Positions 9,575 to 57,256 of a DNA stretch of 64,000 nucleotides are shown here, in pieces. The notes below the pieces were generated by a model. That model did not search any database. It saw only the letters and a list, made by a program, of their open reading frames with translations, and had not been told where the DNA came from. Position 1 is the first letter of the stretch, and every line of letters begins with the position of its first letter. Source of the DNA: Haloarchaeobius salinus (GTDB lineage: Archaea > Halobacteriota > Halobacteria > Halobacteriales > Natrialbaceae); NCBI RefSeq assembly GCF_024464185.1, contig NZ_JANHAU010000001.1, forward strand, positions 496,001-560,000. Reading direction: 5' to 3'. The position numbers and the translations under genes were made by a program.

Positions 9575-9612
9575 TACTCCCCGTTGACTTCGAACTCGAT
9601 GGCTGCGCCCTG
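9575..9612 (-). repeat. Displaced copy of the thiolase 3' end
   Basis: These 38 bp match 9686-9723, the last codons of the thiolase gene (encoding [11 protein letters not shown] and most of the stop codon), with one mismatch. The gene's copy ends in TAG. This copy ends in TAA followed by TCGA. A family 2 element lies exactly between the two copies. Confidence 0.85.
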
Positions 9613-9615
9613 GCA

Positions 9616-9669
9616 CGACCACCTTTTGTCTCCCTCGCTTCGCTCGGTCGCAAAAGCTGGGCCAAAAAG
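9616..9669 (-). repeat. Gene-end element, family 2, copy C
   Basis: On the minus strand this reads CTTTTTGGCCCAGCTTTTG, a short GC hairpin with CGAGCG-AA-GCGAGG, then ACAAAAGGTGGTCG. It starts 16 nt after the thiolase stop codon and ends 3 nt before the displaced thiolase tail. The constant ends match copies A and B near 56.7 and 57.1 kb, while the hairpin differs. T-runs face both directions, so it could also terminate transcription. Confidence 0.75.
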
Positions 9670-9684: not shown

Positions 9685-10875
9685 CTACTCTCCGTTGACT
9701 TCGAACTCGATGGCTGCGCCCTGACCGAAGCCGACGCAGAGCGTCGCCAGGCCGAGGCCGCCTCCGCGCTTGCGGAGCTCGTGGATGAGCGTCACTGGCA
9801 GCCGGGCACCGGAGGCACCGAGCGGGTGGCCGATGGCGATTGCGCCGCCGTTGACGTTGAAGATGTCCTCGTCGATGCCGAGCTCCTCGCGGGCGTACAC
9901 CGTCTGGGAGGCGAACGCCTCGTTGAGCTCGACGAGGTCGTACTCCTCGATGTCGCGGCCGTTACGTTCGAGCAGGCCGCGCGTGGCCGGGACCGGACCG
10001 ATGCCCATGACGGTGGGGTCGACGCCGGCGACGTTGTTCATGCCGACCTCGGCGAGGATCTCGAGGTCGTGCTCCTCGGCGAACTCCTTCGAGGTGACGA
10101 GCGTGGCCGCTGCACCGTCGGAGATCTGGCTGGAGTTGCCGGCCGTGATGTCCTTCATGAACGCGGGCGGGAGGCTCTGGAGCGTCTCGAAGTCGGTGTC
10201 GGGCCGGATGCCCTCGTCCTCGGTGATGGTGCGGACCTCGGTCTCGACGGGCTCGCCCTCGTCGTCCTCCTCGACGGTGACCTCGGCCTCGATGGGGATG
10301 ATCTCGTCCTCGAAGCGGCCCTCCTCGGTGGCGGCGGCGGCGCGCTGGTGGCTCTGGACGGCGTAGCGGTCCTGGGCCTCGCGCGAGATGTCGAACTCGT
10401 CGGCGACCTTCTCGGCGGTCATGCCCATCTGGAGCTCGACCATGTTGTACAGCTCCTGGAACGCCGGGTGGAAGTTCCGGCTCTCCATCCCGCCGCCCAT
10501 CGGCACGCGGGTCATGTGCTCGAAGCCGCCCGCGATGATGCAGTCGCGGTTGCCCGCCGCGATGGCATCAGAGGCGGAGATGACCGCCTGCATCGAGGAG
10601 GCACACCAGCGGTTGATGGTCGTCGCGGGCACACTCTCGCCGAGTTCGGACATCAGGGCGATGATGCGGGCGACGTTGTTGTCCTGCTCGCCGCGCTGCT
10701 GGGCGCAGCCCCACATCAGGTCGTCGACGTCCGCGCCGGAGAGGTCGTTCTCGGCGAGGATCTCGTCGATGAGGGGGACGGAGAGGTCCTCGCCGCGGGT
10801 GTTCTCGTAGACGCCACCCTGGCGACCCTGGGGTGTCCGGTACGCTGCCGCGATGACGGGCGTGTGTCCTGGCAT
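9685..10875 (-). CDS. Acetyl-CoA C-acyltransferase (thiolase)
   Basis: The 396-residue thiolase has the three expected catalytic residues: acyl-accepting Cys91 (RWCASS), His350 ([13 protein letters not shown]) and Cys380 (LCVGFGQG). It cleaves 3-ketoacyl-CoA or condenses two acetyl-CoA. The ATG at 10875 is preferred over one at 10899 because [15 protein letters not shown] is a normal thiolase N-terminus and a TTTAAG box lies about 28 nt upstream. The two long-chain acyl-CoA ligases nearby make beta-oxidation the likely role. Its last 38 bp are repeated downstream beyond a small structured element. Confidence 0.95.
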
Positions 10876-11064
10876 ACCTGTAGCGTGGGCAGGCACCACC
10901 TTAAATCACGGCTGAACGGGCAGTAATCGTGCCGGGAGTTTATTCGACCCGTCAACGAGCGGCCGGAATCGTTCCAGCCACCCGACACCGAGTCGGAATC
11001 CGACGGTCCTCCCGGTGAACGGAACCCAAAAAGGGTTTAGGCACGCTCTCGCTGGAAGCGAGTA

Positions 11065-55409: not shown

Positions 55410-55537
55410 ACGTCGGGGTTCTCCGGGACGGGAGAAAAGCGTTCGGCCGCCCGTTCCGGGCGACAACCGGCAATTTAGCACGGTAGGGTAGCGAGTAAAG
55501 GACAATGTTTTTCGGTGAAGGTTCTAAAGCTCAGCGT

Positions 55538-56674
55538 ATGTCTGACGACCTCAAGAAAGGGCTGGAGGGTGTCCTCGTTGCCGAGTCCGAACTGAGCTTC
55601 ATCGACGGCGACGAGGGCCGCCTCGTCTACCGCGGGTACGACATCGAGGACCTCGCCCGGGACGCCAGCTACGAGGAGGTGCTCTACCTCCTCTGGCACG
55701 GTCGCCTCCCGAATCGGGACGAGCTCGACGAGTTCGCCGCGTCGATGGCCGCCGAACGGGAGATCGACGACGGCGTCATGGCGACGGTGCGCGAGCTCGC
55801 CGCCGCCGACGAGGAGCCGATGGCCGCGCTCCGCACCACGGTGTCGCAGCTCTCGGCGTACGACGACGACGCGGCGGCGGACCCGACCGACGAGGACGCG
55901 AACCTCCGGAAGGGGCGGCGCATCACGGCGAAGATCCCGACCATCCTCGCCGCGTTCGTCCGCGTCCGCAACGGCGACGAACCCGTCGCGCCCCGCGAGG
56001 ACCTCGACCACGCGACGAACTTCCTCTACATGCTCAACGGCGAGGTACCGGACGACGTGCTCGCCGAGACGTTCGACATGGCGCTCGTGCTCCACGCCGA
56101 CCACGGGCTGAACGCCTCGACGTTCACCTCGATGGTCGTCTCCTCGACGCTCGCCGACCTGCACTCCGCGATACCGGGGGGCATCGGCGCGCTCTCGGGC
56201 AGCCTGCACGGCGGCGCGAACCAGGACGTGATGGAGGCGCTGCTCGAGCTCGAGGAGTCCGGCAAGGACCCCGTCCAGTGGGTCGAGGACCGGCTCGACG
56301 CGGGCGAGCGCGTCCCCGGCTTCGGCCACCGCGTCTACAACGTCAAGGACCCCCGGGCGAAGATCCTCTCCGAGAAGAGCGAGGCGCTGGGCGAGGCCGC
56401 GGGCACGCCCCACTGGCACGACTACTCCGTCGCTATCGAGGAGTACCTCACCGAGGAGAAGGGCCTCGCGCCCAACGTCGACTTCTACTCCGCGTCGACG
56501 TACTACCAGATGGGTATCCCCATCGACATCTACACGCCCATCTTCGTCATGAGCCGCGTCGGCGGCTGGGTCGCCCACGTGCTCGAACAGTACGACGACA
56601 ACCGCCTCATCCGGCCGCGGGCCCGCTACGTCGGGCCGATGGACGAGGAGTTCGTGCCGGTCGACGAGCGGTAG
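55538..56674 (+). CDS. citZ: Citrate synthase
   Basis: The 378-residue citrate synthase is the first enzyme of the TCA cycle. The catalytic triad appears as His224 (GSLHGGAN), His264 (PGFGHRVY) and Asp315 (NVDFYSAS). It belongs to the short, bacterial/archaeal type. The ATG at 55538 gives the normal MSDDLKKGLEGVL start with a T-rich stretch about 30 nt upstream; an upstream ATG at 55505 is less likely. Its last 73 bp are repeated downstream behind a small structured element. Confidence 0.95.
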   Translation: MSDDLKKGLEGVLVAESELSFIDGDEGRLVYRGYDIEDLARDASYEEVLYLLWHGRLPNRDELDEFAASMAAEREIDDGVMATVRELAAADEEPMAALRTTVSQLSAYDDDAAADPTDEDANLRKGRRITAKIPTILAAFVRVRNGDEPVAPREDLDHATNFLYMLNGEVPDDVLAETFDMALVLHADHGLNASTFTSMVVSSTLADLHSAIPGGIGALSGSLHGGANQDVMEALLELEESGKDPVQWVEDRLDAGERVPGFGHRVYNVKDPRAKILSEKSEALGEAAGTPHWHDYSVAIEEYLTEEKGLAPNVDFYSASTYYQMGIPIDIYTPIFVMSRVGGWVAHVLEQYDDNRLIRPRARYVGPMDEEFVPVDER

Positions 56675-56884
56675 AACGCGAGCGAGAACTGCGAGGGCGA
56701 ACGGGGCGCCTGCGACCCGGAGCGTCTTTTTGGCCCAGCTTTTTCGAGGAGTGGTTCCCGGAGCGAGCGTAGCGAGCGGGGGAACCCGACGATGAAAAAG
56801 GTGGTCGTACGACCGCCTCATCCGGCCGCGGGCCCGCTACGTCGGGCCGATGGACGAGGAGTTCGTGCCGGTCGACGAGCGGTA
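56601..56884. repeat. Direct repeat of the citrate synthase 3' end around a family 2 element
   Basis: 56601-56673 (end of the gene, to the second base of its TAG stop) is repeated exactly, 73 of 73 bp, at 56812-56884, where the next base gives TAA then TCGA. The 138 bp between the copies hold the family 2 copy A. The arrangement is the same as at the thiolase gene. Confidence 0.9.
56726..56807 (+). repeat. Gene-end element, family 2, copy A
   Basis: CTTTTTGGCCCAGCTTTTT, CGAGGAG, a hairpin with stem GGTTCCC (56753-56759) and GGGAACC (56780-56786), then CGACGATGAAAAAGGTGGTC. It follows the citrate synthase stop by 51 nt and precedes the displaced tail by 4 nt. Confidence 0.8.
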
Positions 56885-57093: not shown

Positions 57094-57160
57094 CTTTTTG
57101 GCCCAGCTTTTTCGAGGAGCGGTGCGCCGGAGGCGCACCCGACGACGAAAAAGGTGGTCG
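57094..57160 (+). repeat. Gene-end element, family 2, copy B
   Basis: CTTTTTGGCCCAGCTTTTT, CGAGGAG, hairpin stem GGTGCGCC (57121-57128) and GGCGCACC (57132-57139) with a GGA loop, then CGACGACGAAAAAGGTGGTC. It ends at the base next to the stop codon of the small zinc protein, which runs in the opposite direction. Confidence 0.8.
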
Positions 57161-57256
57161 TTAGTCGGCTCCGGCGTGTTCGCGCCAGCCGCAACCGGGG
57201 CACAGGAGCGAGCCGCCGGTCTTCCGGGCGGATGTCGCACAGCGTGGGCAGGTCAT
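57161..57256 (-). CDS. 31-residue zinc-ribbon microprotein
   Basis: The 31-residue protein reads MTCPRCATSARK...LLCPGCGWREHAGAD, with two CPxC pairs (Cys3/Cys6 and Cys19/Cys22) that would form a zinc ribbon. Haloarchaea carry many such CPxCG microproteins, some with roles in swarming or biofilm. A GAGGTGA Shine-Dalgarno-like motif lies about 5 nt upstream of the ATG. It is 100 nt downstream of, and on the same strand as, the membrane protein below, so co-transcription is possible. Confidence 0.78.
   Translation of the reverse strand: MTCPRCATSARKTGGSLLCPGCGWREHAGAD

Follow-up and report, generated by a model that had tools for sequence, protein, structure and literature searches.

The citrate synthase locus

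The window, which is the whole stretch of 64,000 nucleotides of Haloarchaeobius salinus DNA analysed here (contig NZ_JANHAU010000001.1, positions 496,001 to 560,000), contains a citrate synthase gene whose 3′ end is present twice (Table 1). The two tails, at 56601–56673 and 56812–56884, are identical over 73 bp with a period of 211, and the duplication extends to 76 bp with one mismatch when it is counted from 56598 and 56809. The insert between the tails (56674–56811) is 138 bp long and contains no protein gene. The copy belonging to the gene ends in TAG, while the second copy ends in TAATCGA. Sequence comparison thus bears out a preliminary description of the locus on the exact repeat, the size of the insert, its lack of a protein gene and both ends. 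Hereafter, T1 designates the tail of the working gene and T2 the second copy.

Table 1. Features of the citrate synthase and thiolase loci, in positions of the window.
Feature	Position	Strand	Basis or extent
Citrate synthase gene (PF00285)	55505–56674	+	Pfam match
T1, tail of the working citrate synthase gene, within the duplication	56598–56673	+	73 bp exact from 56601
Spacer from the citrate synthase stop codon to element A	56674–56725	+	52 bp
Element A: TTTTTGGCCCAG, T-run, hairpin, A-run, GGTGGTC; single long stem	56726–56808	+	Pattern and predicted fold
T2, second citrate synthase tail copy, starting directly behind element A	56809–56884	+	
Element B, same family as A, between convergent genes, without tail copy	57094–57161	+	
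Putative 31-codon ORF with two CxxC motifs, convergent to citrate synthase	57161–57256	−	
Thiolase (acetyl-CoA C-acyltransferase family) open frame, second target	9688–10905	−	
T1 of the thiolase case	9686–9723	−	
Element of the thiolase case	9615–9669	−	Pattern and predicted fold
T2 of the thiolase case	9575–9612	−	38 bp, one mismatch

The two spacers at the citrate synthase locus have nothing in common, although the tails are identical, and part of the spacer ahead of element A resembles a second repeat family found elsewhere in the genome. Element B lies about 370 bp beyond element A, immediately ahead of the stop codon of the convergent short ORF. In the related genome G003, element B and the convergent ORF are present and the citrate synthase gene has a single tail, indicating that element A is the extra one. 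The CxxC pairs of the ORF, which is seen in G003 too, are zinc-ribbon-like; the part of the ORF that was searched against Pfam gave no match. A search of the window against Rfam returned nothing at gathering scores.

A chance origin of the element or the duplication is excluded, the expected number of occurrences of the element core in the window being 0. An assembly artefact was likewise rejected, since many independent genomes show the layout.

A family of short hairpin elements

Element A, element B and the element at the thiolase gene, which are the three occurrences in the window, share the core CTTTTTGGCCCAGCTTTTT...GAAAAAGGTGGTCGT. The family comprises haloarchaeal cassettes that are short and non-coding and contain a hairpin; together with the spacer, they measure about 50–170 bp. 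The termini of the element are imperfectly inverted (GGYCCAGNTTTTT versus AAAAAGGTGGTYC) and are paired in the predicted fold; specifically, both arms of element A are predicted to pair into one long stem. A hairpin with a T-run behind a gene is the layout of an intrinsic terminator, and, judged by their sequence, the cassettes look like two-way transcription terminators. T-stretches end transcription in Haloferax volcanii (PMC7237163), and together with the T-runs of the element this suggests that transcripts would end at the element. At locus L111 (G003 C3:254889), the right half of a family element occurs in several tandem copies with a 43-bp period.

A second case at the thiolase gene

The thiolase locus in the same window has the same architecture as the citrate synthase locus, a parallel that the preliminary description leaves out. 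The changes between thiolase T1 and T2 comprise 20 silent and 14 replacing ones, versus an expectation of 7.5 silent and 26.5 replacing, and the stop lies at the identical codon in 20 of 21 tail pairs. The excess of silent changes and the shared stop codon indicate that the thiolase T2 served as a functional gene end until fairly recently.

Recurrence and targets across haloarchaea

When 1.26 Mb of the contig was scanned for local duplications of at least 20 bp, without reference to the element, only 73 came to light, mostly within long open frames; just two of them, at citrate synthase and thiolase, overlap the end of a protein gene and flank a family element. The element pattern has 66 matches, spread over 40 of 101 Natrialbaceae genomes, and the reversed control has none. 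The edge of the neighbouring gene is copied right behind the right end of the element at 54 of 62 distinct Natrialbaceae elements (1 of 62 for a control region further away) and at 9 of 27 elements outside Natrialbaceae (control, 2 of 27), the 54/62 and 9/27 counts not being independent because orthologous loci repeat.

Core genes make up most of the roughly 12 targets, which are citrate synthase, thiolase, Dph6 (PF01902), EtfA, SufS, SufU, PolD-DP2, HisH, an M29 peptidase, TiaS, a PUA-domain protein and a DUF4385 gene. The DUF4385 gene is targeted at its 5′ edge, and thus the process is not strictly confined to 3′ ends. The copied tails vary in length, roughly from 20 to 180 bp, with no short target duplication of fixed length. 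Their placement relative to the element is not random, as copies begin at most about 12 bases from its right end. At L114, the PolD DP2 target gene is also matched by intein models.

The preliminary description proposed a search for further cases in the genome and knew of no named element with this behaviour. The thiolase locus is a second case in the genome, and the layout is found at about 12 genes in many haloarchaea. A limited search of the open literature and Rfam found no named element; the openly licensed papers searched contained nothing on the element, its core letters or the gene-tail duplication, which is weak evidence of novelty. A small element that takes up position at the edge of a gene and leaves the gene intact is apparently undescribed so far.

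Other repeats were noted in the same genome (contig G000 C1), where short copies of 20–27 bp lie near tRNA genes. The 3′ ends of tRNA-Arg (248753–248827) and tRNA-Val (967611–967686) recur about 100–120 bp on, each pair of copies being separated by another small palindromic repeat (GGGAGCGGAACGGAGTGGAGCGACC), and short copies also lie beside tRNA-Leu near 1132509 and 642854. At 845663–846110, a 69-bp unit is repeated about six times head to tail with no mismatch.

The join is fixed at each target

For any one target gene, different genera show almost the same junction of element and copy. In nearly all genera with a Dph6 case, the copy begins directly after AAAAAGGTGGTTC, at a shared codon, and presence of the element is patchy inside genera. 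Haloarcula vallismortis, H. salina, H. amylovorans and Halorientalis persicus have their citrate synthase genes targeted at the same codons, give or take a few bases, and the elements of Haloarcula and Halorientalis there are somewhat different from that of Haloarchaeobius. Haloarchaeobius sp. FL176 (G004) presents a separate citrate synthase case, in which the copied stretch begins 28 bp from the end of the gene. In 5 of about 11 target families, the gene reads TTC or TTCG just before the copied part, an observation made post hoc; the frequency of TTC in the contig is 0.012.

The second tail is the old one at the testable loci

In single-tail relatives that can be aligned, the downstream flank is that of T2 and not that of T1, and therefore the second tail is the old one at the testable loci. 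It follows that the net gain is one tail, the spacer and the element, placed between the gene and its old end. Specifically, the single thiolase tail of G002 adjoins the flank that lies behind T2 in G003, and clear flank matches at Dph6 favour T2 in five genera (g28, g5, g3, g13 and g29). Of 46 Dph6 flank comparisons, T2 is the better match in 10 and T1 in 3, and the remainder do not decide; in one genus pair (L228/L229), the single-tail flank is closer to T1. Some Dph6 T2 copies contain in-frame stops, indicating that these copies are no longer held by selection. The frequency with which T1 alters the protein end is not significantly higher than in single-tail genes (p 0.2).

The alignment with single-tail relatives that was proposed in the preliminary description therefore supports insertion at the thiolase and Dph6 loci, and at citrate synthase the first bases behind the single tail of G003 align clearly to the flank of neither copy. 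Its reading of integration into gene 3′ ends with restoration of the gene is partly supported, by the recurrence, the non-random tails and the age of the second tail at the testable loci. The support does not extend to integration by a recombinase, as at tRNA islands: for Dph6, the only target searched, 125 genomes contain no larger or distant version of the T2 join and no tail copy away from its own gene, and one target lies at a 5′ edge.

Turnover of the tail copies

The T1 and T2 copies of Dph6 are 93% identical on average within a genome versus 80% between genomes, and identity peaks beside the join. Tail–element units also form arrays of two or three, which end in a tail; a full or partial second element lies behind T2 at L110, L115, L116, L121, L130 and L133, and partial excisions and decayed elements without T2 are seen as well. 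These patterns fit recombination between tails that expands, contracts and homogenises the copies. In the polyploid Haloferax volcanii, gene conversion between genome copies is documented and works efficiently (PMC8223754, PMC11276520). At two single-tail Dph6 loci (L187 and L172), the last 9–20 bases of the gene are recopied shortly behind the stop, and in sequence these short recopies resemble the footprints of an excised element.

Comparison with known systems

e14 and phage 21 in E. coli icd, and the islands at tRNA 3′ ends, are integrative elements that restore the 3′ end of the gene. As in this type, the new tail completes the gene and the old tail is displaced to the far side, which the flank comparisons found here; in addition, the targets are conserved and the tail differences are mostly silent. 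Unlike this type, the haloarchaeal element is only about 100 bp long, with no integrase or cargo found, and it has a dozen unrelated targets, one of them at a 5′ edge, and forms a repeatable unit. MITEs, or small non-autonomous repeats, have reportedly been described for Haloquadratum. The haloarchaeal element is likewise short and non-coding, with a hairpin and ends that appear imperfectly inverted, but it copies tens to more than 100 bases of its target at a position fixed for each gene, and it has few copies per genome and no known partner transposase. Intrinsic two-way terminators between convergent haloarchaeal genes have T-runs in both directions round a hairpin, as the element does, and element B is placed in this manner, but ordinary terminators of this kind come without a copy of a gene end. 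Inteins and other homing elements occupy fixed sites in conserved genes, are patchy in their presence and have flanks that serve as homology arms. The haloarchaeal element is similar in all three respects, but it has no endonuclease and lies outside the working reading frame.

Proposed origin and spread of the cassettes

We favour, at somewhat short of an even chance, an explanation in which the cassettes are captured rarely and are then spread and homogenised by homologous recombination between gene tails. Observation covers the layout and its recurrence, the fixed join, the greater age of T2 at several loci, the patchiness, the turnover of copies and the repetition of units; illegitimate capture and spread between species by homologous recombination are what we infer. 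Capture would be a rare event for each target, an illegitimate join between the right end of the element (GGTGG) and a point inside the gene. The settled order is gene, T1, spacer, element and T2; T1 completes the working gene, and T2 would be the older gene end pushed outwards. Homologous recombination could then carry the two-tailed cassette from cell to cell and from species to species. The gene body would act as the left arm and T2 as the right arm, and this is possible since the two arms pair with every allele of the gene irrespective of its downstream sequence. Exchange between tails would also expand, contract, excise and homogenise the copies, and the element, as a terminator, would be harmless or mildly useful in place. 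In favour of this explanation are the tail copies behind most Natrialbaceae elements, the shared joins in Dph6 and citrate synthase, the T2 flank of single-tail relatives, the higher tail identity within than between genomes, the silent changes at thiolase, the arrays and the gene conversion of Haloferax volcanii. Against it stand the non-significant result on altered protein ends and the L228/L229 pair, and a join that is fixed over many genera also fits site-specific insertion or one ancient insertion followed by losses.

The main rival is site-specific integration, in which a recombinase supplied in trans would insert the cassette inside the gene at a short core sequence, possibly TTCG, and the cassette would carry a gene-restoring mimic of the tail. 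The invariance of the join in each gene, the TTC or TTCG that precedes the copied part in the families noted above and the high copy identity next to the join are in its favour, but a single enzyme would need to act on a dozen gene tails that are unrelated to each other, no encoded enzyme was seen, nor any larger version of the Dph6 join in 125 genomes, and the mimic is too close to the host's own gene in each case, as the within-genome identity of Dph6 illustrates; we regard this explanation as rather unlikely. Local tandem duplication, in which stalling of replication or repair at the hairpin and restart upstream in the gene would recopy the unit and the second element would later be lost, appears improbable. 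It would account for the arrays of two and three units and for the second elements behind T2 at several loci, but in the single-tail relatives the element is missing and the T2 flank is present, which argues for an ancestor without the tail–element unit; moreover, the citrate synthase spacers share nothing while the tails are identical, and the arrays end in a tail. An element in each unit and a one-unit ancestor, as simple tandem duplication would leave, were not found.

A selected function seems more doubtful still. T2 might be kept for antisense transcripts arriving from the far side, or a second end and a terminator might guard the locus. The recurrence of the same genes in many genera is consistent with such a role, as are T-runs facing both ways, given termination at T-stretches in Haloferax volcanii (PMC7237163), but the element is patchy within genera, some T2 copies have in-frame stops, and the element persists without T2 at the thiolase gene of G001 and G005.

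The cassettes may, with a fair though less than even chance, form a previously unrecognised class of minimal mobile DNA. Such gene-free hairpin elements would copy the edge of a conserved gene on entry and then home to that gene in other species through homologous recombination, the displaced tail serving as their homology arm. If so, an element of about 100 bases without genes would occupy fixed sites in core genes across an archaeal class without damage. Recurrent fragments of gene ends in haloarchaea, which annotation would treat as debris, would thereby be explained, and the tail–element–tail layout would make the entry and spread of such elements directly testable.
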